Below are positions 4,604 to 34,065 of a DNA stretch of 34,852 nt, in pieces. The DNA is taken from assembly GCA_009782505.1 (NCBI GenBank), contig WRIW01000018.1, positions 1 through 34,852 of the forward strand. The letters are read 5' to 3'. The notes under the pieces were generated by a model, which saw nothing but the letters and a program-made list of their open reading frames with translations, did not search any database and was not told the DNA's origin. This stretch comes from Clostridiales bacterium (GTDB lineage Bacteria > Bacillota > Peptococcia > DRI-13 > UBA5745). Numbering within the stretch: position 1 is the first letter of the stretch; every line of letters begins with the position of its first letter. The position numbers and the translations under genes are program-made.

Positions 4604-4618
4604 AGCTCTCCCTCCTCC

Positions 4619-6146: not shown

Positions 6147-6929
6147 TTATTTAAGATAATCGTGAACCAGGTAGCCGGAAGCCAGCCCGCCGCCTTCCCC
6201 GAATCCGGCCGCGGCTGCCATGCTGTAGTAAGCTTCCACGATCCGGGTGATCTTCGTCTGGCTCCAGGGGTCTTCCGTGGAAGTCACACCCCAGGAGATG
6301 GAGCCGCTGCACTCCCAGGAATCCCTGGCCGGCGCGGCTTCCGCCCTGGCGCCCATGCCGATGCCGACCAGTTGGCATACCTGAGGCGGGTCGCCGACGA
6401 TATAGCTGGGGATACGCTTGAGCAGCAATACATCGCGTATCTCCTTCGGATCGGGATGGCCGGGCTTCTTCGGCCTCACTGAGGCGGAGAAGATGTTGAA
6501 GCCCCGCGGACGCTCCACAGTCATGCAAATCTGCCCTCTGTCCGAGTAGTACTCCATATCGGCAAGCTTCTTCGCGTAGCCGTAGACCTCGCGGCCGGCG
6601 ATCATCGCCTCGCCGGAGTTGACGAAAAGATTGGTGATGTAGTTGTAAGGTTTTCCCTTGTAGGAGACGTGGTAGATCAGGTTCGCTTCGCAAAAGGGAG
6701 ACGAATCCGAGACAAAGTGGGCGTAGGAGCAAAGGAGGGTCCCCGTGGGCGTGTCGTCCAGGAATTCCAGGGGCTCCGGGAGCCGGTGGGCGACGCTGTC
6801 ATAATCCATTTCAAACTTGATCCGGAAGCTTTCCCCCCGCGCCCAGGTCGGCGGCCCCGGTACGTAGGGGTCTGTGACCGGCATGGTGGCGCCGAAATCT
6901 TCAAACTTGAGTAAACCTTTCTTTCCCAT
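6147..6929 (-). CDS. Acetoacetate decarboxylase family protein
   Basis: The 260-residue protein belongs to the acetoacetate decarboxylase (ADC) family, which uses a Schiff-base lysine for decarboxylation or for aldol/retro-aldol chemistry. The key motif GREVYGYAKKL contains adjacent lysines (120-121 from the chosen start), matching the Lys115/Lys116 pair of clostridial ADC. Upstream ETxE-like and arginine elements are less clear. Two in-frame ATGs exist: the one at 6935 abuts the GGAAGGAGA site with no spacer, whereas the one at 6929 is 6-7 bases away, so 6929 is chosen. It heads the short series leading to the two glycosidase-like genes. It may act on a beta-keto acid rather than acetoacetate; many ADC-family members have other substrates. 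Confidence 0.82.
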   Translation of the reverse strand: MGKKGLLKFEDFGATMPVTDPYVPGPPTWARGESFRIKFEMDYDSVAHRLPEPLEFLDDTPTGTLLCSYAHFVSDSSPFCEANLIYHVSYKGKPYNYITNLFVNSGEAMIAGREVYGYAKKLADMEYYSDRGQICMTVERPRGFNIFSASVRPKKPGHPDPKEIRDVLLLKRIPSYIVGDPPQVCQLVGIGMGARAEAAPARDSWECSGSISWGVTSTEDPWSQTKITRIVEAYYSMAAAAGFGEGGGLASGYLVHDYLK

Positions 6930-7023
6930 AATCATTCTCCTTCCGCTTTATCGTATAGTGGTACATAGGGCGCCTTGGACCGGTACCCGGGTTCAGCGCC
7001 TGAGTCCGCCCGGACCCCGCTCA

Positions 7024-11925: not shown

Positions 11926-12960
11926 ATGACAATGACAGAACGTGAAAACCTGTTGAGGGTAGCTCGCGGGCAAGAACCGGCATGGGTGCCCCGAAAAGGG
12001 TCGCCGCGATTCAATGATGACCCAGAGAATCACAAGCCCAGTTGCATGAGCGCGATGGCAATGCTATTTCCGCCAAGGCGCGGTCCAGGCGGCGGGCGCA
12101 TCGACGTTTTCGGCGTTGAGTATGAGCCGACAGACAGCACAGGCGGGCTTGAGCTCCCCATGCCAAACAAATTTATTCTGGACGATATCACGAAATGGCG
12201 GGATGTGATCAAAACCCCAAAACTTGAGGGGATAGACTGGGGGGCAGTGGCGAGTAAAGCAGTGGAACATATTGACCGCAACGAGTCCTGTGTGATGATG
12301 GGAACTCATGTGGGCTATTTCCAGCATCTCATGAGTTTCATGGGATTTACAGAGGGGCTCATCGCAATTCAAGAGGAGCCTGACGAATGTATGGCTCTTT
12401 TCGAGTATCTTGCGGATTATTTTGAAACGATCGCGAAGAACTTGATAGGCTATATCAAGCCTGATTTCTATGGCATCACTGATGATACGGCTACAGCCCG
12501 CAGCCCATTTATATCCATGGAAACGTACAGAAGAGTGATTAAGCCTTTTCACGCCCGTCTTGCTAAGATAGGCGTTGATCACGATGCGTTCATCGAGATG
12601 CACAATTGCGGAAGATGTGAGGATGCGATTGATGATTGGCGGGAGTTCGGCGTATCCTTCTGGAATCCGGCTCAGGTCACGAATGATTTAAAAGGGATAA
12701 AGAAAAAATATGGGAATGACTTTGTATTGGTCGGATGCTGGGATTCGCAAGGCCCGGCTGGTTGGCCTGGCGCTACAGAGGAAATGGTTCGTCAGGCTGT
12801 ACGGGATTGCATTGACGATTATGCCGCCGGTGGTGGTTTTTGTTTCTATGGGTCGCTATATGGTTCAAAGGACGCGGAAGAAGAAGCCAGAAGGCATGCC
12901 CTATGGATAACAGATGAATATAATAAATACGGTAGGACCTACTATCAAAGGAAAGGGTAA
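11926..12960 (+). CDS. Uroporphyrinogen decarboxylase superfamily protein (methyltransferase-type)
   Basis: The 344-residue protein belongs to the UroD/MtaA superfamily, which includes haem-pathway decarboxylases and zinc-dependent corrinoid methyltransferases. It carries a candidate zinc site: HNC at 226-228 (MHNCGR) plus Cys271 in VLVGCWDS, resembling the His-x-Cys...Cys ligands of MtaA/CmuA-type methyltransferases. This favours methyl-group or C1 chemistry over true UroD; no haem genes are nearby. The start ATG at 11926 follows AGGGGGA. It is transcribed divergently from the PucR-like regulator. A paralogue occurs at 15648. No corrinoid-binding protein is found in the window, so its partner would lie elsewhere or the activity is different. 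Confidence 0.75.
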   Translation: MTMTERENLLRVARGQEPAWVPRKGSPRFNDDPENHKPSCMSAMAMLFPPRRGPGGGRIDVFGVEYEPTDSTGGLELPMPNKFILDDITKWRDVIKTPKLEGIDWGAVASKAVEHIDRNESCVMMGTHVGYFQHLMSFMGFTEGLIAIQEEPDECMALFEYLADYFETIAKNLIGYIKPDFYGITDDTATARSPFISMETYRRVIKPFHARLAKIGVDHDAFIEMHNCGRCEDAIDDWREFGVSFWNPAQVTNDLKGIKKKYGNDFVLVGCWDSQGPAGWPGATEEMVRQAVRDCIDDYAAGGGFCFYGSLYGSKDAEEEARRHALWITDEYNKYGRTYYQRKG

Positions 12961-15647: not shown

Positions 15648-16631
15648 ATGGCTGTCAAAAATGAAATCACAGAAAAGGAAAACATGATCCTATGCATAGA
15701 AGGGAAAAAACCCGCCTGGTTGCCGTCGTTTTACGATGCCTGCGTCCAGACGGGGGTTTCCCCCTTCGGCAGACGCTTAGATGAGAAAACCGGATTTGCC
15801 GTCGATATTTTTGGCGTGGAATTTACGAGGACGGAAGACGGCCCGCTACCTGCTTCAAACCTGGATCAAAGCTTCACTCTCAAGGACATACATAAGTGGC
15901 GAGATATCATGCCGCAAATCGATTTGAAGGCGGTGGACTGGGCGGCTGAAGCGGCGCGGATAAAGAGTACGGCGCCGGTGGATAAAATGCTTTTATACGG
16001 AGGCGGCCCTGTTTGGGAAGAGTTGCATTATATGATGGGCTTTGAGGAAGCGTTGATTGCCCTGATTGAAGAACCTGAAGAGGTATCGAATTGTCTGAAT
16101 GCGATAGCGGATTTCTGGATCGAAGCTTTACGGCTTTTCTGTAAGCATATGAAGCCGGATATGGTTGTTTTTGCGGAGCATATGGCCACCGGAAACGGCC
16201 CGCTTATGTCTCCCGCCACATATCGTAGCGTACTAAAGCCGATACACAGAAAGATGTTCGGCGCAGTACGAGAGCTTGGCATACTGACGGAGCTACATTG
16301 TGATGGCTATATCGAACCACTACTTCCAGACTTCGCGGAAATCGGCGTGCAATGCCTGCAGCCCTTTCAGATATTTAACGACATCAACCGATTTAAGCAG
16401 GAATGTCAAATCACGGCAATCGGAGGTTGGGATACTTTTGGCCGTGGAAATCAATTTGATTCCACGGAAGAGGAGTGCCGTCAGTCTGTGCGAACCGCAA
16501 TGGATGCTTATAGTCCAGGCTACCGATATGCTTTTCTTCAGGGCGGTGCCGCGCCCAGGTACAAACAAAACTCCGAATGGCTGGCTGACGAGGCTCGTAA
16601 GTACGGCAGAACATTTTATCAGGAGGGATGA
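15648..16631 (+). CDS. Uroporphyrinogen decarboxylase superfamily protein, paralogue with altered metal site
   Basis: The 327-residue protein is a paralogue of the 11926 gene, with matching VDIFGVEFTRTEDG, KDIHKWRDI, GFEEALIALIEEPEE and C-terminal KYGRTFYQ blocks. The metal-site region reads ELHCDG (215-220), with His and Cys adjacent instead of His-x-Cys, and the downstream Cys of the paralogue (GCWD) is Gly here (GGWD). It may therefore bind metal differently or not be a zinc methyltransferase. AGGAGAG precedes the ATG by a normal distance. The stop codon overlaps the start region of the next gene (ATGA), so the two are translationally coupled. The reaction is unknown. Confidence 0.75.
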   Translation: MAVKNEITEKENMILCIEGKKPAWLPSFYDACVQTGVSPFGRRLDEKTGFAVDIFGVEFTRTEDGPLPASNLDQSFTLKDIHKWRDIMPQIDLKAVDWAAEAARIKSTAPVDKMLLYGGGPVWEELHYMMGFEEALIALIEEPEEVSNCLNAIADFWIEALRLFCKHMKPDMVVFAEHMATGNGPLMSPATYRSVLKPIHRKMFGAVRELGILTELHCDGYIEPLLPDFAEIGVQCLQPFQIFNDINRFKQECQITAIGGWDTFGRGNQFDSTEEECRQSVRTAMDAYSPGYRYAFLQGGAAPRYKQNSEWLADEARKYGRTFYQEG

Positions 16632-17756: not shown

Positions 17757-18032
17757 TCAGTTCCAATCAGGATCAAGCAGGAAATCCCTGATGTTCCTGT
17801 GCTTGACCCCATCGCGGCTCATGTCAAACTCGTCCAGCGACACGACGTACTTCGGAAAATTATCCCGTATAGACTCGTATGCTCCGAACTCGCGCTGGAT
17901 CGTCTCCTCTGACGCGAGAAGGTAGGAAACCTGTACGTAGAGCTTCTCCGTCTTTTTTTCGCAGACGAAGTCTATCTCTTTCGTCTTCGCTTTTCCCACC
18001 GTGATTTTATATCCCCTACGAAGCAGTTCCAT
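17757..18032 (-). pseudogene. 5'-truncated remnant of a DUF4143-type AAA ATPase
   Basis: The 91-residue frame matches only the C-terminal end of the common ATP-binding proteins carrying DUF4143: LLRRGYKITVGK, KEIDFVCEKK, KLYVQVSYLLASEETIQREFGAYESI and FPKYVVSLDEFD. The family is usually around 400 residues, and the Walker A and B ATPase domain is missing. In-frame reading upstream reaches a stop at about 18072 after some 13 codons without homology. No ribosome binding site is evident. It is a decayed fragment between two operons and probably marks an old rearrangement. Confidence 0.75.
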
Positions 18033-18134
18033 AAGATATATCTTAATGATTGCATATTTTCGTAAAGAGTTTCAGGTATGTATGCAAGCCCACAGGGTAC
18101 ATCATACCTTCTTTCCGTTCGCTATCATTTTGTG

Positions 18135-18140
18135 TATAAT
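18135..18140 (+). promoter_or_regulatory. -10 element upstream of the bicupin gene
   Basis: A perfect TATAAT lies about 59 bp before the bicupin start codon. The -35 position (TTTCCG) is weak. Transcription would start near 18147. Confidence 0.45.
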
Positions 18141-18198
18141 AGCCACAGGACGCGTAGGAAACGAATTGAAGAATAATATTTCGGAAAGGAATGATCTC

Positions 18199-19179
18199 AT
18201 GACGCACCCATATTTTATGGACTTCAACAGCAAAGACAGCTGGATGTATGCCACGGAATTCATTCGCCCAAACGGAGATAAGGGTGAAGAGCAGCGAACC
18301 CTCAACTTACCGGAAGGCCCGGACAGGTTATTCTACATCACCGACTCTGTCATGTATCCCCCGTCCGCTGATAGCACCGCTGCCGATTTGCACTGCCACG
18401 AGCACTATGTGGGTTGGGAAGTCTTTTTCGTCGACGAGGGAAACATGGACTTGTTTGTAAACGGGATGAAGGTCTTCGTCGAAGAAGGGAGCGTACTTCA
18501 CTTACAGCCATATGAAGCCCACGCGATGCGATTCTATTCCCCTGTTAAGTATCGCCTGTTTGCCCATGGATTAACCATTAATCCGTACACGGCGGTCATA
18601 CCAACCCTGTTTGCCCGGGATCCCAATTTTCGGGAAGACCCGGAGTACCCCGCGATAGCGCGGCGCGGCGGAAGCGATACCGGCGCTTACGGACGCGAAG
18701 CCCCTGTCTGGGAAGAAGTCCCTGTCGAGAAATGCTCCACAGTACGCCATATCAGCCGCCCAATGGCGACGTTTGAGTTAGAAGGCGTCACCGCGAAAAT
18801 GATTTCCGCGCGCTGGGAAAACGGCGGTGTGTGCGAGATGTGGGCTTATGAGATGGAGAAAGGGTTTGTCGCCAAAACGCGCAAATTCAGCACCCTCCCG
18901 CAGCTATACTACGTCACGGCGGGCCAGGTGAAGTTTACGGTGTTTGATGAAGAGTTCATGGCTAAGCCGGGATGCGTCGTCAAGGTTCCGAAGCTCGCGA
19001 ATTGCACGATCGAAGCATTGTCCGACGCCGTGGTATATGATACGGGCGGGTTGCCGCGTATGCAGGCGTATATGCTCGACCGCGCTTCGATCCTGAAGTA
19101 CGACCCGGAGCGGGCAAAGGATCCGGCTACGTTCGATGAGCTCAGGGAGAAATTCGGCATACAGCTTCAGATCGGGTGA
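18199..19179 (+). CDS. Bicupin protein
   Basis: The 326-residue protein has two cupin-like halves. The first carries metal-ligand-type residues in HCHEHYVGWEVFF (His65, His67, Glu74) and His108 in YEAHAMRF. The second (about 230-300) has YYVTAGQVKFTVFDEEF and KPGCVVKVPKLANCTIEAL but lacks the histidines. Start ATG 18199 follows AAAGGA and a TATAAT promoter; the longer upstream frame would begin upstream of that promoter. It is monocistronic and convergent with kdgK. Cupins include dioxygenases, sugar isomerases and sensors; the function here is not evident. It contains no DNA-binding domain, so it is not an AraC regulator. Confidence 0.72.
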   Translation: MTHPYFMDFNSKDSWMYATEFIRPNGDKGEEQRTLNLPEGPDRLFYITDSVMYPPSADSTAADLHCHEHYVGWEVFFVDEGNMDLFVNGMKVFVEEGSVLHLQPYEAHAMRFYSPVKYRLFAHGLTINPYTAVIPTLFARDPNFREDPEYPAIARRGGSDTGAYGREAPVWEEVPVEKCSTVRHISRPMATFELEGVTAKMISARWENGGVCEMWAYEMEKGFVAKTRKFSTLPQLYYVTAGQVKFTVFDEEFMAKPGCVVKVPKLANCTIEALSDAVVYDTGGLPRMQAYMLDRASILKYDPERAKDPATFDELREKFGIQLQIG

Positions 19180-21987: not shown

Positions 21988-22059
21988 GAAAAAGCTGATA
22001 AAGTTGAAAAAGCGTTGCAGCCTTCAGATGATGAATTAACACGAAGGAGGAGGTCCAGC

Positions 22060-22857
22060 ATGAATACCCCAAGCATAAGCACGATGAAAGGCGCCTTCGA
22101 TCTGAGCGGAAAGAACACCATCGTCACCGGCGGAAACGGCGGCCTTGGCTTCGGCGTCTCCAAAGCCTTCGCGGAGTCCGGAGCCAACGTAGCCGTACTC
22201 TGCCGAGACATGGGAAAAGCGGCTGGCGCCCTGAAAGAGTTAGGCGCCAATGGCGGCAAGTATGAAGCCTTTTCTTGCGACGTCACGGACATGGCTGACG
22301 TACGCAAAGCCGTCGGGGAAGCGTATAAGTCCTTCGGCAACATCGATATCCTGGTAAACAACGCCGGCGTTTCCACCAATACGAGGCTTTTCGATATGGA
22401 CGAAGAGCTTACCGAATGGCATAGGGTGGTGGATACCGACCTGACCGGGCTCGTCAATATGACTTACGTTGTCGGCAAACGCATGAGGGATTCGGACAAG
22501 GGGGGCAACATCATCAACGTGACGTCCAACGCCGGGCTGATCATCAACCGGGACTTGTTCCTCTCCCCCTACAGCGCGGCGAAGGCGGCGGCGAATCATT
22601 TCACCCGGTCGATGGCGATGGAGCTGGGTTTGTACGGCATCAGGGTCAACGCCATCGCCCCCGGATTCATCAACGACGGCTTCGGGAAGAATTCCTCGCC
22701 GGAGCGCGACAAGCAGATATTCGCCGCCCAGGCCTTAGACCGCAGGGGGACGGCTATGGAAGTGGGCGCCCTGGCGGTCTATCTGGCTTCGGCCGCGTCG
22801 GGCTTTACCACAGGGGCCGTGATGGTGATGGACGGCGGGTATTCGCTGTCCTGCTAG
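22060..22857 (+). CDS. Short-chain dehydrogenase/reductase (gluconate 5-dehydrogenase/3-oxoacyl reductase type)
   Basis: The 265-residue classical SDR has the NAD(P)-binding motif TGGNGGLG (23-30), NNAG (100-103), the catalytic Ser156 and the Tyr171-x3-Lys175 pair (YSAAK). It ends with a normal MVMDGGY block. An Arg (CRD) after the second strand may favour NADP. AAGGAGGAGG precedes the ATG at 22060; the frame continues upstream without homology. It lies 16 bp before the first reductase-subunit gene. It could be a sugar-acid dehydrogenase linked to the divergent eda-kdgK operon or a hydroxyacyl dehydrogenase serving the reductase product. The sequence alone does not choose. Confidence 0.85.
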   Translation: MNTPSISTMKGAFDLSGKNTIVTGGNGGLGFGVSKAFAESGANVAVLCRDMGKAAGALKELGANGGKYEAFSCDVTDMADVRKAVGEAYKSFGNIDILVNNAGVSTNTRLFDMDEELTEWHRVVDTDLTGLVNMTYVVGKRMRDSDKGGNIINVTSNAGLIINRDLFLSPYSAAKAAANHFTRSMAMELGLYGIRVNAIAPGFINDGFGKNSSPERDKQIFAAQALDRRGTAMEVGALAVYLASAASGFTTGAVMVMDGGYSLSC

Positions 22858-22873: not shown

Positions 22874-23791
22874 ATGGTTCTGCAGTACGCCAAATGGCCC
22901 GAAATCCAATGGATGTCGGACGATGCCGGTTGGAAAGAGGCGAAGACGATCACCGCGGGCGTAGACATAGGTACAACAAGCGCCCAAGCCGCCGTCGTCG
23001 CCGACGGACAGCTCGCGGCGTACGCCGGCATCCGCGCGGGAACCGATTTCCGCAAAACGGCCGATGAAGTCATGGCTCTTGCCCTGGGCGCGTCGGGCAT
23101 AACCCTTGAGCGTCTGAGCGCGGTAGGCGCCACGGGATTCGGCAAGCGCAACGCGGCTTTCGCTACGGAAAGCCTGGACGAGGTATCCTGCCACGGCAAG
23201 GGGGCGCGCTTCATCTACGGATCGGAAGTCACCACCGTCGTGGATCTCGGCGCCCAGACCGTGACCGCCATCAAGCTATACGAGTGGGACCGGGTATGGG
23301 ATTTCGCCATGAACGATATCTGCGCCACGGGGATGGGGCGCAATATCGAGATGGTCTGCGACCTGCTCCACGTACCCATCGGGGAGATCGGGGAGTACTC
23401 CCTGGATCTGGGCGGGAAGCCCGACCCGGAGCCCGTGAGCACTACCTGCTACAACTATGCCGGTACGGAGACCATGGGGCTCTTCCGGCCGGAGTTCCGA
23501 GGAGATACGCTGAACGGAAACGAGATCTGCGCTTCCCATCTCTTCGCCGTGGCATGGCGCGTATTGGGCGTGATCGGCAAGCTTCAGTCCCTTGAGCCGG
23601 GCGATATCAAGGTAGAAGGGAAGCTGGGCTTCACCGGCGGGCTGGCCCACAACGCGGGGGTTACCCGGCGCATCGAGAGGGAACTGGACACTACGGCGCT
23701 GACAAGCGAATACGACCCCATGCTGGCCGGCGCCATCGGCGCGGCGCTGCTTGTACTCCCCGAAGCCGCAGAAAGGGGGGGTGTGAGATGA
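22874..23791 (+). CDS. BcrA/BcrD-type ASKHA ATPase subunit of a benzoyl-CoA reductase-like complex
   Basis: The 305-residue protein is in the BadF/BadG/BcrA/BcrD ATPase family, which couples ATP hydrolysis to low-potential electron transfer. It has the phosphate-binding DIGTTSAQAA (31-40), VDLGAQTVTAIK (123-134) and FTGGLAHNAGV near the C-terminus. The cysteines expected to hold the bridging [4Fe-4S] cluster are present: Cys150 in NDICATGMG and Cys192 in TTCYNYAGTE. AGGAGGTAAA gives a strong start. It overlaps the next gene by 4 bp. A second, different ATPase closes the operon, so a heterodimeric activator as in BcrAD is likely, rather than the homodimeric activator of 2-hydroxyacyl-CoA dehydratases. 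Confidence 0.85.
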   Translation: MVLQYAKWPEIQWMSDDAGWKEAKTITAGVDIGTTSAQAAVVADGQLAAYAGIRAGTDFRKTADEVMALALGASGITLERLSAVGATGFGKRNAAFATESLDEVSCHGKGARFIYGSEVTTVVDLGAQTVTAIKLYEWDRVWDFAMNDICATGMGRNIEMVCDLLHVPIGEIGEYSLDLGGKPDPEPVSTTCYNYAGTETMGLFRPEFRGDTLNGNEICASHLFAVAWRVLGVIGKLQSLEPGDIKVEGKLGFTGGLAHNAGVTRRIERELDTTALTSEYDPMLAGAIGAALLVLPEAAERGGVR

Positions 23792-24984
23792 GCGCGGAGG
23801 CAACTATAACGCGAGGCGCAGACGCCTTGGGCGCAGCCTTCGATTTCAAAAGCCTGGTGGATAAGCGCCACGATTACGCCAGGGCATGGAAGGCGAAGAC
23901 CGGGGGCAAGGTACTGGGCTGGTTCGAACCGTACTTCCCCGAAGAGATCGCCTACGCCGCGGGAATGCTGCCGGTGAGGATACTGGCGCGGCACGAAGTA
24001 GACGACATATCGGACAAATGGATATACAGCTCCTGCTACCCGGTGAGGGACATGGTAAACCAGCTCCTCAAGGGTAGATACGACTATGTGGACGGCTTGG
24101 TCAACGTGGAGGGCTGCCAGTGGATGTACAACGCCTTTGAAGTAATGATGAACAACAGGGAAAGCCTGTTCTACCATTATCTCTTCCTCCCGGACTACAC
24201 AAACGCGGCTACGTCCAAGGACGTCGCGAAAAATGAGTTTGCCGTGCTCGCCGACCGGTTCAAGGGGTGGACGGGGAAAAGCATCACAGATGCGGACTTG
24301 GACGCCGCCATCGAGGTATACAACCACAATCGGCTGCTCCTGCGCCGGATCAACGAACTCCGCCGGGCGGACAGGCCGGTGATCTCCGGCTCGGAGATGA
24401 TGAACCTCGTCCTGGCAGACCAGGTGATGGACAAGGCCGAGATGAACGTCATCCTTGAAGATTTCATCAAAGAGCTGGGGTTGAGGAAGCCCGGGCCCGA
24501 CAAGATCAGGCTGATGATCGTAGGCAGCGAGACCTGGGACGCCCGGCTGGAAGAGCTGGTTGAAGCTCAGGGGGCAAACGTAGTCGCCGACGAACTGGAT
24601 AACGGGACTTCATACTACTGGAACAACGTGCTGCCTCAGGAGGACAGGCTCATGGCCCTGGCTTTGCGGTACCTGGGCCGCCCCCACAGCGCGCTTAAGG
24701 ACAACAACTACCGGCGCAGGCCCCAGCATATATTTGAGTTGGCGGAAGACTTCAATGTGGACGGCGTCCTGCTGGAGAAGCAGATCTACTGCCACTCCCA
24801 TGGCTCGGATATGTACGCCGTGTGGAAGATGCTCCGGGAGAGATACATACCTTATCATTACTTCGAACGGGGCAGCCTGCTGCCGGAGGACGAGACCGCT
24901 GCCCGGTTGGAAGCCTTCTTAAGCATGCTGAAGCCGGGCTTGAACCATCTGGCCGGTTGGCATAAAAAGTTTGGGGAGGACTAG
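23788..24984 (+). CDS. BcrC/HgdB-type subunit of a benzoyl-CoA reductase-like complex
   Basis: The 398-residue protein belongs to the 2-hydroxyglutaryl-CoA dehydratase D-component/benzoyl-CoA reductase family. It has exactly three cysteines, Cys83 (YSSCYPVRD), Cys110 (VEGCQWMY) and Cys335 (IYCHSHGSD), each in a family cluster-ligand position, so a [4Fe-4S] cluster in the active-site module is likely. It would form the catalytic pair with the following BcrB-like subunit. The ATG overlaps the preceding stop (ATGA), with GGGGGG-rich sequence upstream, and the next gene begins 5 bp after its stop. Size is near that of BcrC. It could also serve an atypical dehydratase, but the four-gene set favours a reductase. 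Confidence 0.85.
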   Translation: MSAEATITRGADALGAAFDFKSLVDKRHDYARAWKAKTGGKVLGWFEPYFPEEIAYAAGMLPVRILARHEVDDISDKWIYSSCYPVRDMVNQLLKGRYDYVDGLVNVEGCQWMYNAFEVMMNNRESLFYHYLFLPDYTNAATSKDVAKNEFAVLADRFKGWTGKSITDADLDAAIEVYNHNRLLLRRINELRRADRPVISGSEMMNLVLADQVMDKAEMNVILEDFIKELGLRKPGPDKIRLMIVGSETWDARLEELVEAQGANVVADELDNGTSYYWNNVLPQEDRLMALALRYLGRPHSALKDNNYRRRPQHIFELAEDFNVDGVLLEKQIYCHSHGSDMYAVWKMLRERYIPYHYFERGSLLPEDETAARLEAFLSMLKPGLNHLAGWHKKFGED

Positions 24985-24989
24985 GCCAT

Positions 24990-26306
24990 ATGAAAAATAA
25001 ACAAATATGGGAAACCCGGCCCCTGGAGTTTTGGGATAAAGCCAAGGAGCTCCGCGCTCGTTGGCAGGAGTCCTCAAGCGACGCGAAAAGGGTTCTGGGC
25101 CAGGGCAGCACCTATGATATCGACTGGGCGGAATGCTTTCCCGCTATGAATATTGTGGAGGACAATCCCGGCGGCTCCATGATCCAGGCTAAGGATTCGC
25201 CCTACGCCAGGAAGTGTCGCCTCGCCAGTGAAATCCGGGGCTGGGGCAGGGAGATATGCGGCTATACAAACAACCTGTGGGGATCTATGTATCTGGGCTA
25301 CGAACAGGATGGTTTGCCTTTCCCGCCGCGGAAATTCGTCGTATTCATGCCTGCCGAATGCGACCAGCATACCAAGCGGGGGCAGCAGTGCAGGGATTTC
25401 GCTCCCGTGCCCGGCTGGATGTCGGACTGCACTATCTACCTGGGAGAGGACGATCCGGTCAGAGACGAATTATTCCGTGAGCATAAGGTTTACTGCAATT
25501 TCAAGCAGATCAACGACCTGGAGCGGATATTCGGGCAGAAGTTCGACGATGAGAAGCTGAGCAAGATGATGGACTACAGCGAGGAAGTCATCGAATACTC
25601 CCGGGACATCATCATGCTCATGGGTAGGACCATACCTTCGCCCCTCTCCGTCAAAGACTTGTATTCGGTATATACCATCGGCCATCTCACTAAAGTGGAT
25701 CCCGAGGATACGGTCAACTTCTGGAAGATGGTTCGGGACGAGGTGCAGTGGCGGGCGGATAACCAAATCGCCGCGGTAGGCAACGAGAGGTTTCGCTGGG
25801 TGGAGGCCCATCCCCCTTCCTGGCATTTCCTGAAGTACTACCGGTACATGGAGAAGTACGGCGCCGTATGCCTGGGGTCTCAGTATACCGCGCAAAACTG
25901 CGGGCTGCTGGAGTATAAGCCGGACGGGGGCATCGACCGCCGCGTCAGTATGAAGTACCCCAAGGATACGCCCATCGCGACCAGGGAGGACGCCCTCCGC
26001 ATGATGCTGGGGCCGGATCCCAGGGAGCCCCGGGCCTGGAAGTCAGACGAATATATCCGCCAGGACTCCATCGTGGAGTTCGCGGATATCATGCGAGCCG
26101 ACGGCGCTTTGCTGCCCCTGTGGCGCGGAGGCGTAGGCTGCACCCTCACCAGGAAGGAGCAGGCCATGCGTCTGCGTAAGGCAGGGCTCAGCGTGATCTA
26201 CTACGAAGGCAGCCAGCCGGGGGATCGTACGGACCTGGACGAGCAGCGCTTCCTGGATCAGCTGGATACCTGGATGGAAAGCTTTGGCTACGAGATGTTA
26301 GATTAG
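24990..26306 (+). CDS. BcrB/BzdO-type subunit of a benzoyl-CoA reductase-like complex
   Basis: The 438-residue protein matches the larger catalytic subunit (BcrB, BadE, BzdO) of class I benzoyl-CoA reductases. Characteristic segments are GWGREICGYTNNLWGSMYLG (about 84-103), MPAECDQHTKRGQQC (120-134) and WRGGVGCTLTRKEQ (378-391). Cys90, Cys124 and Cys384 are the likely cluster ligands among ten cysteines. GGGGAGGA precedes the ATG. In characterised systems this pair reduces the aromatic ring of benzoyl-CoA to cyclohexadienoyl-CoA, with two ATP used per two electrons. The substrate here is inferred only from family. It is followed by the second ATPase gene after 11 bp. Confidence 0.87.
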   Translation: MKNKQIWETRPLEFWDKAKELRARWQESSSDAKRVLGQGSTYDIDWAECFPAMNIVEDNPGGSMIQAKDSPYARKCRLASEIRGWGREICGYTNNLWGSMYLGYEQDGLPFPPRKFVVFMPAECDQHTKRGQQCRDFAPVPGWMSDCTIYLGEDDPVRDELFREHKVYCNFKQINDLERIFGQKFDDEKLSKMMDYSEEVIEYSRDIIMLMGRTIPSPLSVKDLYSVYTIGHLTKVDPEDTVNFWKMVRDEVQWRADNQIAAVGNERFRWVEAHPPSWHFLKYYRYMEKYGAVCLGSQYTAQNCGLLEYKPDGGIDRRVSMKYPKDTPIATREDALRMMLGPDPREPRAWKSDEYIRQDSIVEFADIMRADGALLPLWRGGVGCTLTRKEQAMRLRKAGLSVIYYEGSQPGDRTDLDEQRFLDQLDTWMESFGYEMLD

Positions 26307-26317
26307 GGGGCGGGAGT

Positions 26318-27196
26318 ATGGCAGCAGAGCGGAGCGCGGGCGCCGGCGGCGCGGGACTGGTCACAGCCGGGATCGACGCGGGGATCGCGTATACGAAAGT
26401 AGTCATCCTGAAGGACGGCGCGGTGGTGGGCAGAGGAATCGGCCCCACCGGCGGCGTGGACCGGAGGGAAAGGATAGAGGAAGCTTATCAGCGCGCGTTG
26501 GAAGACGCGGGGCTTGACGCCGGGGAAGTGAAAGGAGTCGTGGTCACAGGCAAGGGCAAACACGACGCGGGCTTCGCCGGGAAGCGGATATCGGAGTTGC
26601 TGGCGACGAAGAGAGCCGTGGAGCGCATGAGCCCCGGAGCCACATGTTTAGTATCCGCAGGCGCCGACGAGACCATCGTATCGGCTTCGGCTGGGGAGGG
26701 CGGAGCGGGGGAGTACGCCTTCAACCAAAAGTGCTCGGCAGGCTTGGGATTATTTCTCGAGTATATGGCAGATCGCCTGAGCATGGATATAGGGGAGCTG
26801 AGCAGCCTGGCGGACGGCGTGGCGGCCCCGGAAGCCTCGCAAGCCGCTGAGGGCGTGGCGATCCCGGAAGCCGCAAAGGCCGGAGAAGCCGCAGTGAACG
26901 AAGGCTGCGTCGTATTTGCTGAGCTGGACGCCCTGAGCCTGCTGAATCATGGCGTATCCCCCGCCGATGTGGGCCGGGCGGTAAACCGGGCGGCGGCGGC
27001 CCGGGTGAGCGCCGTCATCAACGATATCACTTATCCGTCGGCAGATCGCGTCGTACTTGTGGGCGGCCTGGCGAAAAACAATGCATTTGTGAGGGCCTTG
27101 GAGACACTGTCCGGCATAAAGCTTACCGTCCCGGACGACGCCGAGTACGCCGGAGCCCTGGGCGCGGCGCTGGCGGCAGCGGACAGCGCTCAGTGA
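26318..27196 (+). CDS. Second BcrA/BcrD-type ASKHA ATPase subunit
   Basis: The 292-residue protein is a second member of the BcrA/BcrD ATPase family, clearly different from the 22874 gene. It has the phosphate loop GIDAGIAYTKVVI (18-30), the cluster ligands Cys139 (NQKCSAGLG) and Cys197 (EGCVVFAELDAL), and a C-terminal VLVGGLAKNN block. Between the two cysteines lies an alanine-rich insertion (about 166-190) containing two imperfect copies of GVAxPEAxxAxE, longer than expected for the family. GGGGGCGGGAG precedes the ATG. It is the last of the four reductase genes; a 140-bp gap with its own promoter follows. Confidence 0.85.
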   Translation: MAAERSAGAGGAGLVTAGIDAGIAYTKVVILKDGAVVGRGIGPTGGVDRRERIEEAYQRALEDAGLDAGEVKGVVVTGKGKHDAGFAGKRISELLATKRAVERMSPGATCLVSAGADETIVSASAGEGGAGEYAFNQKCSAGLGLFLEYMADRLSMDIGELSSLADGVAAPEASQAAEGVAIPEAAKAGEAAVNEGCVVFAELDALSLLNHGVSPADVGRAVNRAAAARVSAVINDITYPSADRVVLVGGLAKNNAFVRALETLSGIKLTVPDDAEYAGALGAALAAADSAQ

Positions 27197-27336: not shown

Positions 27337-28890
27337 ATGAAAACCAAGGTAATGAAACTGGAGGAGGCCATAGGCCTGGTCAAGGACGGCGACGCAGTGG
27401 CGACCTCGATGGCGGGGAACATAGGCAACGCCGGCTATCTGATCAAGGGCCTGGAGACCCGCTTCCTGGAGACAGGCTCGCCGAAAGGGCTCACCAAGTA
27501 CTCCGGCTGCGGCCATCCCAGCGACGCGATGTTTGCCCATCCGGGCTTCATCAAGCGCTTTGTGGGGTCTCATCCCGGCCCTTGCCCCCCAATGCTGGCG
27601 ATGATCGATAATAATGAACTGGAAGCCTACGGCCTGCCTCAGGGCATCATCCAGCAGCTATACCGCTGCACGGCGGCGAAGCAGCCCGGCCTGCTGTCCA
27701 AGATCGGCATAGGCACCTACGTCGATCCCAGGCAAGTCGGCGGCAGGCTAAACGACGTATCCAAAGACAGCACAAACCAGATCATGGAGGTCGGGGGAGA
27801 GGAATGGATATTCTACAAGAGCTTCCCCGTAGACGTGGCATTGATCCGCGCGACCACAGCGGACGAAAGCGGCAATATAGCCATCGAAGAAGAAGCCCTC
27901 AAGCTGGAGATACTGGAGATCGCCCTGGCGGCGAAAGCTTCGGGGGGTAAAGTACTTGTCCAGGTGAAAAACGTCGTAGCCAACGGTTCGCTGAAGGCTA
28001 AAGACGTGGTGATCCCGGCGGAAGCCGTAGACGCGGTGGTGGTCGTGGAGGACATCCAGGCTTATCATATGCAGACGAACAGGACTTACTACAATCCCTT
28101 CCTCAGCGGACAGCTCAGGGCGCCCCAGGGCGCGGTGGCGCCGCCTCCCGAGGTATTGGACATGGCGGAGCTCATCGGGCGGAGGGCCGTGTACGAGCTG
28201 TATCCCGGCGCGGTGGTCAACGTAGGCCTGGGCGTAGGCGTGGGCGTCTGCTCGGTAGCGGCCACGGAGAACATGGTAGACCGCGTCACCTTTACCCTGG
28301 AGCTTGGCGCCTTTGGCGGCACGCCTACGCCGAAAAGCGATTTCGGCGCCACGGTTAATCCCACGTCCTTCATTGCTCATCCGTCCATGTTTGACTTCTA
28401 TCACGGCGGCGGCCTGGACATCGCCTTCCTGGGGTCCGCGGAAGTAGACCGGGAGGGTAATGTGAACGTAAGTAGATTCGGGGAGATCAAGGCCGGCCGC
28501 GCCCAGGGCGGCTTCATCGACATCAGCCAGTCCGCTAAGAAGGTGGTATTCTGCACCTATCTGAAAGCGGGAGGGCTCAAGGCGGAAGTCGCGGGGGGGA
28601 AGATCGAGATCGGCCAGGAAGGCAAAGAGATCAAGTTCGTGGAGAAAGTCAATGAGATCACTTTTAATGGTAAGCTGGCGGTGGAAAGAGGGCAGGAAGT
28701 CGTCTATATCACGGAGCGCTGCGTATTTAAACTGACGAAGGAAGGCGTCGTTCTCACGGAGATCGCCCCCGGCGTAGACCTGGAGAAGGACGTCCTTGCC
28801 CAGATGGCGTTTAAGCCGGTGGTCAGCAAGGATCTGAAGGTCATGGACGCCCGGATATATGTCCCCGGCAGAATGGGTTGTTTTGACTGA
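27337..28890 (+). CDS. Class I CoA-transferase, fused alpha/beta (YdiF-like), copy 1
   Basis: The 517-residue protein is an acetoacetyl-/propionyl-type class I CoA-transferase in which the alpha and beta halves are fused. It moves CoA between acyl groups through a glutamyl-CoA intermediate. Glu322 in LELGAFGG is the likely catalytic Glu. Other family blocks are IRATTADESGNIAIEEE, AELIGRRAVYELYPGAVVNVGLGVGVG and DIAFLGSAEVDREGNVNVSRFG. AAGGAGGTCTC precedes the ATG. It begins the downstream module, separated from the reductase genes by a promoter. It probably activates the pathway acid with CoA from acetyl-CoA or another acyl-CoA. A divergent second copy is at 30304. Confidence 0.88.
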   Translation: MKTKVMKLEEAIGLVKDGDAVATSMAGNIGNAGYLIKGLETRFLETGSPKGLTKYSGCGHPSDAMFAHPGFIKRFVGSHPGPCPPMLAMIDNNELEAYGLPQGIIQQLYRCTAAKQPGLLSKIGIGTYVDPRQVGGRLNDVSKDSTNQIMEVGGEEWIFYKSFPVDVALIRATTADESGNIAIEEEALKLEILEIALAAKASGGKVLVQVKNVVANGSLKAKDVVIPAEAVDAVVVVEDIQAYHMQTNRTYYNPFLSGQLRAPQGAVAPPPEVLDMAELIGRRAVYELYPGAVVNVGLGVGVGVCSVAATENMVDRVTFTLELGAFGGTPTPKSDFGATVNPTSFIAHPSMFDFYHGGGLDIAFLGSAEVDREGNVNVSRFGEIKAGRAQGGFIDISQSAKKVVFCTYLKAGGLKAEVAGGKIEIGQEGKEIKFVEKVNEITFNGKLAVERGQEVVYITERCVFKLTKEGVVLTEIAPGVDLEKDVLAQMAFKPVVSKDLKVMDARIYVPGRMGCFD

Positions 28891-29212: not shown

Positions 29213-30199
29213 ATGAAGGTTGCGATTTTAGGCGCGGGAGCTATGGGCTCTTTGGTAGGGGCGCATATCAAGAAAGGCGGCGGCGAGGTCTACTTCGTCG
29301 ACGTTTTCGAGGAACATATGAAAGCGGTGGCGGAGAAAGGCATATCCATGGACTTGGAGGACGGAGCGGGGCCTCAGCCGGAGACGGTCAAGGTAGACGG
29401 CGCCGTGGTCAATGGGGACAGCGTGGGCGTGTGCGACGCGGTGATCGTCTTGGTGAAATGCTACGATACGGAGACCGCCATCGAAGGAAACCGGGCGCTT
29501 TTCGGGAAAGACACCGTAGTGATCACCCTCCAGAATGGGGTGGGCGGCGCGGATCTCATCGCGAAGCATTTCGACGCGGATCATATAGGGCTCGGCGTGC
29601 TCAAATCATCCGCAAACATACTGGGGCCGGGCAGGATCATGGGCAGAACCCGTTTCCCCAATAGCCCGAAGGGGATATATTTCTCTCCCTCTAAGTGGGA
29701 AACACCCTACCGCCATGTATACGACGAACTGGAAAGGCTTCTCAACGCGGGGGGGATGCCGGCGGAATGCAACGAGCGTACCGAGGAATTCGTCTGGGAT
29801 AAGTTATGCACAAATGTGATGATCAACGGCGTCGCCGCCTTGCTCCAACTGGCAGGCGAGTATCTCGCGAACCATGAGGACGGGGTAAGGCTCATGAACG
29901 AGTTGGCCAGGGAAACCTGCGAGGTGGCTACGGCAAGGGGCATCAAGAATATGGAGGCGTCGAAGTACGTAAGGGAGCCGAAACCCGGCTACAACGCCCC
30001 CGAGGTGAAGACGCCCCACTATGTCTCCATGGTATCCGACGCCTACTATAAGCGGAGGACGGAGATCGATTTCATGAACGGGGCCGTGGTCAAGGAAGGG
30101 AAAAAGCACGGCATACCCACGCCGTACAACGAGACGGTCTGCCGGCTGGTCCGGATCATGCAGGATACTTACGATACGCGCTACGTGCCGCTTACCTGA
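29213..30199 (+). CDS. Ketopantoate reductase (ApbA/PanE) family oxidoreductase
   Basis: The 328-residue protein has the N-terminal Rossmann motif GAGAMG (7-12), the LVKCYDT and TLQNGVGG segments, and a C-terminal helical domain with the probable catalytic Lys197 in VWDKLCTNVMINGVAAL and IDFMNGAVVKEGKKHGIPTPYNE. These are standard for the ApbA/PanE fold, which reduces 2-oxo-acid groups with NADPH. No other pantothenate genes are nearby, so it is more likely a pathway-specific 2-hydroxy/2-oxoacid oxidoreductase than true PanE. AAGGAGGTC precedes the ATG. It sits between the two CoA-transferase genes, with a separate promoter after it. Confidence 0.85.
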   Translation: MKVAILGAGAMGSLVGAHIKKGGGEVYFVDVFEEHMKAVAEKGISMDLEDGAGPQPETVKVDGAVVNGDSVGVCDAVIVLVKCYDTETAIEGNRALFGKDTVVITLQNGVGGADLIAKHFDADHIGLGVLKSSANILGPGRIMGRTRFPNSPKGIYFSPSKWETPYRHVYDELERLLNAGGMPAECNERTEEFVWDKLCTNVMINGVAALLQLAGEYLANHEDGVRLMNELARETCEVATARGIKNMEASKYVREPKPGYNAPEVKTPHYVSMVSDAYYKRRTEIDFMNGAVVKEGKKHGIPTPYNETVCRLVRIMQDTYDTRYVPLT

Positions 30200-30303: not shown

Positions 30304-31857
30304 ATGAAAAACAAAATCGTTACAGCGGCGGAAGCGGCCGCCAAAGTCCCGGACGGGGCATTCATCGGCATCAGCGGCGTAGGGCCTCACGGCGTAGCCC
30401 AGGAGGTCTACGAAGCTATCGCGGCCAGGTATGAGAGCGAAAAGCATCCCAAAGACATCTCCCTTATCCACTCCGGCGGCAACATGAGCTCCAAAGTATT
30501 TGCCGCAGACGGACTGATGGGGGCCTACTACAGCGGCCTGCCCAATCTGGACAGCGACCTCATGGCCAGCGACCGCTTCCCCGTATACGCCCTGAGCCAG
30601 GGCATCGCCTGCCAGCTCTACCGGGCCCAGGCCAACGATACCCCCTTCCTCACGAAAGCGGGGGTCAATACTTTCCTGGATCCCCGCATCGAAGCCGGGG
30701 CCATCAACGGGAAAGCGAAAGCGAAGCCCATCGTGGAAGTCGTGACACTGGGAGGCGAGGAGTACCTGCACTACCAGACGCCAAAGATCACCTGCGCCAT
30801 CATCCGGGCCACTACGGCGGATATGGAAGGCAACCTCATCAACGACGAGGAATACGTGAAGTTCGAGATGCTGTACCTGGCTATGGCGGCTCACAACAAC
30901 GGCGGCGTCGTCATCGCCCAGGTGAAGAATATCGTGAAAAACGGTTCCCTTAACGGCGGCGATATCAAAGTGCCGGGCATGCTGGTGGATTATGTCGTAC
31001 CCTGCACGGACTATGGCAAATACCACATGCCCCAGAATAATACGCCTTTCTCCGCGGCTCTGACGGGCTTCCGCAAGGCGGACGAGAGCCTCATCCCCTT
31101 CGAGAGCTACGCTCCGGACGGTGAGCGTCTGGCGGTGGTACGCCGGGCGGCGACGGAGCTGTGGCCGGGCTGCGTATGCAACATCGGCATCGGTATGCCC
31201 GTAGGGGTATCTTATGTAGTGTCTAAGGAAGGCATACAGGACATGTTTGTCCTGAGCAACGAGCTTGGGGCTGTGGGCGGCCACCTTGGGGGGGCGTTCT
31301 TCTTCCCGGGCTCCTTCAATGCCCGGGCTTACCTGAACCACCACGAGATGTTTGACTTCATCAACGGCCACGGGCTTGACATCACCTTCCTGGGCGCCGC
31401 CGAGGTAGGCGAGGACGGCTCGGTGAACGTGACCCGTATCGGGGGGAGGATACACGGCTCCGGCGGCTTCGTCAATATCGCGGCCAGCACGAAGAAGATC
31501 GTATTCATCAGCTCCATGACCATAGGCGGGAAGCACGCCATAGAAGACGGCACGCTGAAGATAACGACGCCTGGCAGAGGCGGCAAATTCCTAAAGCAGG
31601 TGGATCAGATCAGCTTCAACGGTAAGGATATAGCGAAACGTGGCCAGGAAGTCTGGTATGTGACGGAGCGGGCTGTATTCAAGTTCATCGACGGGAAGAT
31701 CACGCTGATGGAGTACGCTGACGGGCTCGACGTAGAGAAGGACATCCTGGCTTATATGGAATTCAAGCCGGAGATATCCCCCGACCTGAAGCCCATGCCG
31801 AAGTACTGCTTCGAGACGGGGCGCATCGGACTCAAGGAGCAGTGGCTCAGCAAATAA
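30304..31857 (+). CDS. Class I CoA-transferase, fused alpha/beta (YdiF-like), copy 2
   Basis: Also 517 residues and a paralogue of the 27337 gene, with parallel ALIRATTADxxGN-type, RRAATELWPGCVCNIGIGMPVG and DITFLGAAEVGEDGSVNVTRIG blocks. The likely catalytic Glu320 is in LSNELGAVGG. It has its own promoter and is followed by an SDR and a thiolase, so it may act on acetoacetate-like or product acids while copy 1 acts on the starting acid, or the two may differ in substrate only. The long spacer before the ATG could reduce or regulate translation. Confidence 0.88.
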   Translation: MKNKIVTAAEAAAKVPDGAFIGISGVGPHGVAQEVYEAIAARYESEKHPKDISLIHSGGNMSSKVFAADGLMGAYYSGLPNLDSDLMASDRFPVYALSQGIACQLYRAQANDTPFLTKAGVNTFLDPRIEAGAINGKAKAKPIVEVVTLGGEEYLHYQTPKITCAIIRATTADMEGNLINDEEYVKFEMLYLAMAAHNNGGVVIAQVKNIVKNGSLNGGDIKVPGMLVDYVVPCTDYGKYHMPQNNTPFSAALTGFRKADESLIPFESYAPDGERLAVVRRAATELWPGCVCNIGIGMPVGVSYVVSKEGIQDMFVLSNELGAVGGHLGGAFFFPGSFNARAYLNHHEMFDFINGHGLDITFLGAAEVGEDGSVNVTRIGGRIHGSGGFVNIAASTKKIVFISSMTIGGKHAIEDGTLKITTPGRGGKFLKQVDQISFNGKDIAKRGQEVWYVTERAVFKFIDGKITLMEYADGLDVEKDILAYMEFKPEISPDLKPMPKYCFETGRIGLKEQWLSK

Positions 31858-31952: not shown

Positions 31953-32789
31953 ATGGAACTAAAGAATGTTAAAGCTGTCGTCACCGGCGGCGGATCGGGT
32001 ATGGGCAGAGCGGCGGCGGAAGCCATCGCCGCGGCGGGCGGCAAGGTCTGCATCGTGGATTTCAACGAGGAGCGCTGCAAGGAAGTAGCGGCAGGCCTGG
32101 GGGACGCCGGGTACTATGAGCTGGCCGACGTGTCGGACTCGGCCCGGGCGGAAGCCATTGTGAAAGGCGCCGTGGAGAAGTTCGGTTATGTGAACGTCGT
32201 GATCAACTGCGCCGGCGTCGGTTCCGGCACCCGCATACTGCCCAGAGAAGGCGGCGTATTTCCCATCGATACATTTAAACGGGTCATCGAGATCAACCTG
32301 TATGGCACGTTTAACTTCACCTGCCAGGGCGCCCTGGCCATGAGCACGGCTCCGGAGAACGAAGACGGGGAGCGCGGCGTGATCATCAATACCACATCCC
32401 TGGCTATCGAGTCCGGCCAGATCGGCCAGGCGGCGTACAGCGCTTCCAAAGGCGCGGTCCACTCCATGACTCTGCCCATCGCCCGGGAGCTGGCGCGGGT
32501 AGGCATACGGATCAACACCATCACTCCGGGCCTGGTCGCGACGAATATGTCCGGCGTGGAAGGCCTGCTCAGGGCCGAGCGCGGCGAAGCGCCCCCTCCG
32601 GGCAGCGGCCCGCCTCCTCCCAGGAGGCCTATGGAAGAGAGCCCGGCAGCTAAGGACTTCATCTTCCCCCGCAGGCAGGGCACGACGGCGGAGTTCGCCT
32701 CGCTGGCTATGGAGATCATACGCAACGGCCATCTGAACGGTGGCGCTTACGCCCTGGACGGCGCTATCCGGTTCAGCCCGAAGTGGTGA
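31953..32789 (+). CDS. SDR, 3-hydroxyacyl-CoA dehydrogenase type (HSD10-like)
   Basis: The 278-residue SDR has TGGGSGMG (11-18), Asp36 (IVDFNEE) favouring NAD, Ser149, Tyr162 and Lys166 (YSASK). The segment GVIINTTSLAIESGQIGQAAYSASKGAV is typical of type II 3-hydroxyacyl-CoA dehydrogenases, which oxidise 3-hydroxyacyl-CoA in beta-oxidation. The substrate-lid region has a proline-rich insertion (about 212-228, PPPGSGPPPPRRP) unusual for the family. AGAAAGGAATGAGTG precedes the ATG. Followed after 22-34 bp by a thiolase, it would feed a 3-oxoacyl-CoA to it. Confidence 0.83.
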   Translation: MELKNVKAVVTGGGSGMGRAAAEAIAAAGGKVCIVDFNEERCKEVAAGLGDAGYYELADVSDSARAEAIVKGAVEKFGYVNVVINCAGVGSGTRILPREGGVFPIDTFKRVIEINLYGTFNFTCQGALAMSTAPENEDGERGVIINTTSLAIESGQIGQAAYSASKGAVHSMTLPIARELARVGIRINTITPGLVATNMSGVEGLLRAERGEAPPPGSGPPPPRRPMEESPAAKDFIFPRRQGTTAEFASLAMEIIRNGHLNGGAYALDGAIRFSPKW

Positions 32790-32823
32790 GCGGCTTATCT
32801 AAGAAAAGAGGATGATGAATTCT

Positions 32824-34065
32824 ATGTCGAACAGATGTGTTATCACCAGTTACGCCAGGACCCCTTTGAGCAGCCAGAGCGGCAAGGAGTTCCAGGAGAT
32901 GCCTATTCCCGAGCTGGCCGTGATACCGGTGAAAGCCGCCATTGAGCGCTCCCATCTTGGCAGGAGCGATGTAGGCGGCCTGGTCATGGGCAACGCGGAT
33001 TCCCACGGGCAGGCGCAGAACCTTGGCCGCCATGTGGCTCTTAAAGCCGGCCTGGATTATGAGACCGCCTTGGCCTACACGGTACACAGGGTATGCGGCT
33101 CCGGCTTTACCGCCGTCACCAACAGCATGATGGAGATATGGGCGGAGGAGAGCAGCGTAATGATCGCCGCGGGAGCGGAGATGCTGTCCCACTCCTCAGT
33201 ATCCCTTCCTTTATCGTTCGCCTGGACGGGTATACCCAGAGGCGGCATCAAGCTGGGCGGCGGCAACTATGAGGGGGACGCCTGTACCCCCAACGAGATC
33301 TACGGCGTGATGTACGGACCGGCTTTCACCGTAGAGAAGGCGGCCCGCCTGACGAAGATCCCGCGAGAAGACTGCGACCAGTTTGCCTACGAAAGCCAGA
33401 TGAAGGTCAAGAAAGCCCAGGAAACGGGGCGCTTTGATACAGAGATCGTACCCATCGAAGCCCCGGTCACCGACCGGAAGGGCAAGGTCTCCAAGGTCAC
33501 CTATGACCGGGATCTACACCCCAAGCCGAACACCACCGCCGAGGTGCTGGCTACCCTGAGGCCCGCCTTTGAAGAAGACGGCGTCATCACGGCGGGCAAC
33601 GCTTCGGGCAACACAGACGGGGCGGCCGCCATGGTCATCATGACGGAGGACGAGTGCAAGAAGCGGGGGCTGACCCCCATCGCTTACCTCAATGCCTTCG
33701 CCTACGGCGGCGTGGATCCCACGCTGATGGGTACAGGACCCGTACCTGCCATACAGAAGCTCATGAAGAAAACCGGCATTACCTTCGACGACATGGACGT
33801 ACTGGAGATCAACGAAGCCTTCGCCCCCCAAGTGCTGAGCTGCCTGCGTATGCTGGATCAGTACATGGACAAACCCCTGTACCAGCGGCTGAACCCCAAC
33901 GGCGGCGCCATCGCCCTGGGCCATCCCACGGGCTGCACAGGGGTGCGCATCACTATGTCGGTAGCCGAGCAGCTTCGTATCACCGGCAAGAAGTACGGCG
34001 TAGCCAGCGCCTGCATAGGCGGCGGCATGGGCGCCGCTATCCTGCTGGAAAACGCCCAGGTTTAG
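32824..34065 (+). CDS. Thiolase (acetyl-CoA acetyltransferase family)
   Basis: The thiolase of 413 residues (from the Met at 32824) has all catalytic elements: Cys91 in HRVCGSGF, the NEAFAPQ block, His367 in GGAIALGHPTGCTG and Cys397 in ACIGGGMG. It cleaves 3-oxoacyl-CoA with CoA, or condenses two acetyl-CoA. Three in-frame ATGs (32812, 32815, 32824) follow AAAAGAGG; the first two abut the site, so the third is preferred, although 32815 is possible. With the SDR upstream it forms a classic final beta-oxidation pair. Direction cannot be told from sequence. Confidence 0.92.
   Translation: MSNRCVITSYARTPLSSQSGKEFQEMPIPELAVIPVKAAIERSHLGRSDVGGLVMGNADSHGQAQNLGRHVALKAGLDYETALAYTVHRVCGSGFTAVTNSMMEIWAEESSVMIAAGAEMLSHSSVSLPLSFAWTGIPRGGIKLGGGNYEGDACTPNEIYGVMYGPAFTVEKAARLTKIPREDCDQFAYESQMKVKKAQETGRFDTEIVPIEAPVTDRKGKVSKVTYDRDLHPKPNTTAEVLATLRPAFEEDGVITAGNASGNTDGAAAMVIMTEDECKKRGLTPIAYLNAFAYGGVDPTLMGTGPVPAIQKLMKKTGITFDDMDVLEINEAFAPQVLSCLRMLDQYMDKPLYQRLNPNGGAIALGHPTGCTGVRITMSVAEQLRITGKKYGVASACIGGGMGAAILLENAQV

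Follow-up and report, generated by a model that had tools for sequence, protein, structure and literature searches.

The draft genome of a Clostridiales bacterium (GenBank assembly GCA_009782505.1) contains, on a contig of 34,852 nucleotides (WRIW01000018.1; hereafter the window), four adjacent genes that resemble those of class I benzoyl-CoA reductases (BCRs). In these enzymes, ATP hydrolysis in a pair of ATPases (Q and P) pushes single electrons to the N subunit and then to the O subunit. Is this quartet an ordinary BCR, or does it serve another chemistry? An earlier description made from the letters alone (the sequence-only reading) had proposed a complete BCR-like complex of four subunits acting as a new aryl- or enoyl-CoA reductase. 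Our analysis shows that the quartet, called QNOP after its gene order, represents a new sister subfamily of the Bzd-type class I BCRs and is not a Bzd enzyme. The chief novelty is found outside the window, beyond the reach of the sequence-only reading, in the expansion of the O subunit and in the existence of orphan O subunits.

A quartet related to the Bzd-type reductases

The quartet (22874-27196, plus strand) is composed of four intact open reading frames (ORFs), all starting with ATG and each preceded by a purine-rich stretch resembling a Shine-Dalgarno sequence. Q (22874..23791) is a BzdQ-like ASKHA ATPase with the ATP motif GVDIGTT and cysteines C150 and C192. Its gene overlaps by 4 bases that of N (23788..24984), a BzdN/BcrC-like HGD-D subunit whose only cysteines are C83, C110 and C335. 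The gene of O (24990..26306), a BzdO/BcrB-like HGD-D subunit predicted to be catalytic, follows after 5 bases and that of P (26318..27196), a second ASKHA ATPase with cluster cysteines C139 and C197, after 11 more. The tight packing, the cysteine positions and the non-standard order ATPase-C-B-ATPase (Q-N-O-P instead of N-O-P-Q) had all been read correctly from the sequence alone. The same quartet was found in four related genomes and in two other gut metagenome-assembled genomes (MAGs), so that the Q-N-O-P arrangement is not due to chance.

All four proteins exceed the Pfam cut-offs, Q and P for BcrAD_BadFG and N and O for HGD-D, and two HGD-D subunits encoded in one operon with two distinct BcrAD-type ATPases are a trait of class I BCRs at large. 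The top NCBIfam models are BzdQ, BzdN and BzdO for Q, N and O, and the general activase model CoA_E_activ (135 bits) for P. The Bzd equivalog cut-offs were missed by bzdN (216 bits for a cut-off of 454), bzdO (167 for 449) and bzdQ (193 for 380), and identity to the Bzd subunits of Aromatoleum (BzdNOPQ, PDB 8s02) is only 28-34%. The closest solved structures for N and O are nevertheless BzdN and BzdO (6.7e-62 for O against PDB profiles). The AlphaFold2 model of N superposes on BzdN (8s02_B) with template modelling (TM) scores of 0.88/0.93 and a root-mean-square deviation of 1.5, that of O on BzdO (8s02_C) with a TM score of about 0.79, and both models fit these subunits better than HadBC, Mbd or the double-cubane protein DCCP.

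Phylogenetic analyses point in the same direction. In the N tree, which contains long branches, all 26 family members group together (support 100/99) as sister to BzdN and three Bzd-type loci (94/98), with MbdN, HadC and DCCP outside; an alternative topology that places the family with HadC and MbdN fits worse, although the approximately unbiased test did not reach formal rejection (p-AU 0.077). The O tree separates the family from Bzd with 99/100 support and shows Bzd as its nearest relative. Q and P are two separate ATPase lineages, each grouped with the BzdQ or BzdP of the control loci (SH-aLRT 100) in a tree built without HadI/HgdC outgroups, and are thus orthologous to BzdQ and BzdP, respectively. 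The complete four-subunit set with its two distinct ASKHA ATPases, as claimed in the sequence-only reading, is therefore borne out, with N and O lying nearest to Bzd and not among ordinary 2-hydroxyacyl-CoA dehydratase/activator systems; such a dehydratase with its activator can be rejected from the trees, the two ATPase lineages and a conserved histidine of O (see below). The two cluster-bridging cysteines of each ATPase are invariant across all Q and P copies. Around the cluster cysteine, at Q residue 149, NDICATG is found in the window protein and its nearest relative (L048), and DKCA in the remaining Q copies.

Three quartets from other Bacillota (L078, L079 and L080), with the order N-O-P-Q and O proteins 31-35% identical, were used as controls. 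They retain every canonical Bzd residue and are genuine, canonical Bzd-type class I BCR operons. The altered sites described below are therefore specific to the QNOP clade, and a canonical Bzd enzyme was rejected by this comparison.

Cluster sites of the N and O subunits

In BzdN, the [8Fe-9S] double cubane is held by Cys36, Cys73, Cys100, Cys263, Cys293 and Cys327 (PMC11971306). The alignment equates C83, C110 and C335 of the window N with Cys73, Cys100 and Cys327, which are retained in all family sequences covering the site. At position 263, all copies with this stretch have Asp; Glu, Asp or Pro predominate at 36, with Cys in two copies, and Ser or Asn at 293, with Cys in one. Compared with the HAD site described in PMC11971306, the three retained cysteines would correspond to the proximal half of the [8Fe-9S] cluster, the distal half having lost its ligands. 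Family N subunits thus lack the full double-cubane set and probably hold a single cubane, hence fewer stored electrons.

The active site of O has been rebuilt. BzdO binds its [4Fe-4S] cluster through Cys95, Cys128 and Cys380; Glu65 and His131 are catalytic, Trp46, Leu302, Leu383 and Tyr97 surround the ring, and a helix (15:32) touches CoA (PMC11971306). The family keeps Cys95, Tyr97, Cys128, His131 and Tyr298 (C90, Y92, C124, H127 and Y299 in the window O), as well as the N-terminal, CoA-contacting arm with its motif LxxWxKAKELR. By contrast, Glu65 is replaced in the alignment by Asn within an E-D-N-P motif (Asn59 in the window, next to Asp58 and Glu57), Gln274 by Pro and Cys380 by Gly, and a new invariant Cys appears at position 383, which is Leu in BzdO. 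The third cysteine (C384 in the window O) has thus moved three residues, in an alignment free of gaps across about 30 residues. In HadB (NRSC) and MbdO (VKSC) it sits at the 380 position and, as judged from the alignment, the shift is unique to the QNOP clade among the characterised relatives compared. The AlphaFold model of O has a confidence under 50 in exactly the stretches around two ligand loops (residues 125-145 and 380-383) and is therefore no guide to cluster binding by Cys384.

In the part of O that matches the ring-contact loop following Tyr298 of BzdO (positions 302-307), variability among paralogues ranks between the 88th and 100th percentile, and the residue at the Leu302 position itself varies. 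Such variability beside invariant catalytic positions is the pattern that would be expected if the O paralogues differ in substrate.

Three other systems share part of these features. The 3-methylbenzoyl-CoA reductase Mbd/MBR (PDB 9g87, 9gai) also has four subunits and, in the alignment, an N-type subunit without the three distal cubane ligands, but it is far more distant (O profile E 4e-7); MbdN falls outside Bzd and the new clade, and MbdO lacks the His. The (R)-2-hydroxyisocaproyl-CoA dehydratase HadBC with HadI (PDB 3o3m, 4eht) resembles QNOP in its three-cysteine N-type subunit, its folds and its ASKHA activator, but it uses a single homodimeric activator, keeps the Glu and lacks His131. 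DCCP/DCCP-R (PDB 6eno, 7yyl) belongs to the same superfamily (13-22% identity); it is encoded by a single HGD-D gene with a full double cubane, and DCCP identity was rejected because this ligand set is absent here. The sequence-only reading, which had equated the quartet with the BcrABCD/BzdNOPQ set, was thus right about the subunits but not about the cofactor sites. QNOP is not of Bzd type: it lacks the double-cubane ligands and the Cys at position 380 (95 and 128 being kept), scores below the equivalog cut-offs and does not nest within Bzd. It does have the subunit set of a class I BCR and probably delivers electrons in the same way.

Expansion of the O subunit and orphan O genes

The genome, a 1.98 Mb draft MAG in 73 contigs (83% complete, 1.36% contamination), encodes six N genes and 14 O genes plus two contig-end fragments (14-16 in all); several family copies are situated at the end of a contig. 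Where the 5' sequence is visible, seven O genes lack an adjoining N gene (three on contig C2 and one each on C4, C31, C40 and C42). On C2, one orphan O directly precedes a quartet, giving O-Q-N-O-P (L017 14942-19882, L018 3-668), and two further orphan O genes are located 3.6-7.3 kb upstream of this operon. The same contig encodes a 995-residue protein with two BcrAD-type ATPase matches within a single chain (L030 8204-11191).

O matches were detected in four of the 60 genomes searched, most other relatives, including two near-complete genomes of the same genus, having none. A genome of the same family (G006, 96% complete) has 14 matches and two of the same genus (G001 and G002) have eight each. 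Several species have O paralogue lineages in common in the O tree; therefore, the expansion predates these species. Switches between the orphan and quartet states occurred at least seven times on this tree. Orphan O orthologues have intact ligands across genomes and dN/dS ratios of 0.03-0.10, close to those of quartet members. The orphans are thus strongly constrained by purifying selection. Two anomalous copies, an O gene split over two overlapping frames in G002 (L070 8240-9564) and an O gene of G006 (L056 6607-8034) adjoined by a partial extra O match (contig position 8918-9304), could be decaying copies or assembly errors.

The named carriers of family relatives are MAGs, mostly from termite guts, and include Peptococcaceae bacterium Gx485 (from Glyptotermes; PMC11707648), Clostridiales bacterium Th196P3 (Th196 being the humus-feeding termite Termes hospes; PMC7024585), an uncultured Flavonifractor and Family XIII bacterium Po218. 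Judging by a member of its genus, the bacterium of the window would likewise be related to a termite-gut organism. The only match among plasmids was a weak one, from Rhizobium. Our literature search, whose coverage excluded subscription journals, found no account of the QNOP subfamily and no paper joining termites to an expanded BCR-like family.

Genomic surroundings and possible chemistry

Upstream of the quartet, SDR1 (22054..22857, plus strand; Pfam adh_short_C2, 6e-54) encodes an SDR-family dehydrogenase and ends 17 bp before Q, with which it is probably cotranscribed; promoter and terminator scans gave matches at chance level only. Downstream, all on the plus strand, lie a fused FadX-like CoA-transferase (27337..28890; Pfam CoA_trans; NCBIfam Staph_FadX 405 bits, below cut-off), a candidate activator of the acid substrate, a ketopantoate-reductase-family dehydrogenase (29213..30199; TIGR00745 190 bits, above cut-off), a second FadX-like CoA-transferase (30304..31857), the SDR-family dehydrogenase SDR2 (31953..32789) and, 23 bp further, a thiolase (32812..34065; TIGR01930 374 bits, above cut-off).

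Elsewhere in the window, two URO-D/MtaA-type methyltransferase-like genes (11926-12960 and 15648-16631) bracket a family 5 substrate-binding protein and a class II aldolase/decarboxylase-like gene. Two neighbouring MGH1-like glycoside hydrolase genes (2804-6127, minus strand) are followed by an acetoacetate-decarboxylase-family gene (6147-6935), and a 392-residue protein (18001-19179) shows a cupin match in each half and no NCBIfam match.

At the genome scale, the zone within 7 kb of an O gene, which covers 7.5% of the genome, contains three of the four CoA-transferase loci and with them five of the six matches (p 0.0016). Methyltransferase genes were found near O at four of 15 loci, although this statistic is weak and post hoc (p 0.02; the genome has 18 URO-D matches). 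The orphan O of contig C4 is located within a corrinoid methyltransferase cluster (L020 6141-14900) comprising three URO-D-type methyltransferases, a corrinoid protein and a methyltetrahydrofolate methyltransferase, with an adjoining aldehyde:ferredoxin oxidoreductase. CdhC was not found in this 83%-complete genome, which makes for a weak absence.

The reading that we favour, and to which we give an even chance, is that QNOP is a BCR-like heterotetramer that would reduce CoA esters of hydroxylated or methoxylated aromatic acids derived from lignin or humus. It is based on the Bzd affinity of the subunits and the structure matches, the conserved equivalents of Cys95, Tyr97, Cys128, His131 and Tyr298 together with the N-terminal arm, the site changes that the control loci show to be clade-specific, the hypervariable segment beside invariant catalytic residues, the O to N ratio (14-16 to six) with the selection on orphans and the O-Q-N-O-P arrangement, the CoA-transferase loci close to O genes, and the methyltransferase and corrinoid genes beside an orphan O. 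For such a complex we infer an electron path, cluster types, an aromatic CoA-ester substrate and a sharing of N, P and Q. The Q/P pair would hold a bridging [4Fe-4S] cluster and, driven by ATP, pass single low-potential electrons from ferredoxin to N, which would carry a single cubane or a HadC-like [4Fe-5S] cluster in place of [8Fe-9S] and hand them on to the [4Fe-4S] cluster of O, beside which the CoA ester would be positioned. An iron-bound water would still face His127, the proton donor Glu65 being gone, and Cys384 would either take over cluster binding or line the pocket. O could then be a specificity module multiplied in the genome, with few N/Q/P sets serving several O subunits.

Several observations weigh against this proposal. 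The double cubane and Glu65, two features tied to the two-electron ring reduction of BzdNO, are lost, and one ATP per electron is expensive for a fermenter. No model of a benzoyl-CoA-pathway ring hydrolase scored above cut-off and only one crotonase-family ORF was found, so that any later opening of the ring would have to follow an uncommon route, even if such absences are weak in an 83%-complete MAG. Moreover, many sister quartets share no common catabolic neighbours and adjoin unrelated genes, e.g., ispD, thyX, a chemotaxis receptor gene or transporters. The neighbourhood alone thus cannot identify the substrate; of the new reductase proposed in the sequence-only reading, a CoA-ester substrate remains probable.

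Among the alternatives, the one that survives best, though we consider it rather unlikely, is a dehydratase-like recycling in which a single electron, activated by ATP, serves repeatedly. By way of a ketyl radical, O would split off water or some other leaving group from a CoA ester bearing a hydroxyl, as 2-hydroxyacyl-CoA dehydratases do. The ATP cost would be affordable for fermenters, N has just the three cluster cysteines common with HadC, which needs no two-electron store, and the topology joining the clade with HadC and MbdN was not rejected. CoA-transferases and a ketopantoate-reductase-family dehydrogenase adjoin the operon, an arrangement that resembles dehydratase operons. However, the subunits are closest to Bzd, and in place of a single homodimeric activator the complex has two different ATPases. 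QNOP keeps His131, which HadB lacks (PMC11971306), and has neither the Glu nor the third Cys at 380 found in HadB. MbdN also lacks the distal ligands, yet it is annotated as a reductase subunit.

Less probable still is a reaction that reductively strips an aryl-CoA of a substituent on its ring or side chain (dehydroxylation or demethoxylation) and leaves the ring aromatic. The loss of the proton-donating Glu65 and the remodelled ring pocket would fit such a reaction, and ATP-dependent aryl C-F cleavage involving a class I BCR has been reported (PMC4992971), but the methyltransferase genes near some O genes, which also speak for it, yield only the weak statistic given above. An ordinary BCR of an anaerobic benzoate degrader fits the subunit set and the fold but is very improbable, given that all subunits miss the equivalog cut-offs, that canonical residues kept in true Bzd-type loci are altered clade-wide, and that no benzoate-CoA ligase or ring hydrolase model scored above cut-off in the genome (for the ligase too, a weak absence at 83% completeness). 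Finally, that the pattern stems from a chimaeric MAG or from faulty binning and that the orphans are decayed copies, as the 73 contigs and the copies at contig ends might suggest, is hardly credible in view of the 1.36% contamination, the same expansion in G006, G001 and G002, and the intact ligands and low dN/dS of orphan orthologues.

Returning to the BCR-like heterotetramer, the QNOP family is probably an expanded set of ATP-driven radical CoA-ester enzymes acting on aromatic acids. We further propose, tentatively, that in gut Clostridia a few electron-injecting Q/P/N sets serve many exchangeable O subunits, that the hypervariable loop fits each of these to a plant aromatic of its own, and that the relocated cysteine holds the cluster for a radical chemistry other than the Birch reduction of benzoyl-CoA.

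The anaerobic breakdown of plant aromatics in animal guts is poorly known. Some organisms carry many reductive dehalogenase genes for organohalides, and a bacterium with about 15 BCR-like catalytic subunits would be their counterpart for aromatic acids. The relocated cysteine and the lost double cubane amount to a natural experiment, which could show what elements of the recently solved BzdNO mechanism (PMC11971306) each chemistry requires. With its rebuilt active site, the family probably has chemistry and substrates that are new compared with the known enzyme that breaks aromatic rings without oxygen.

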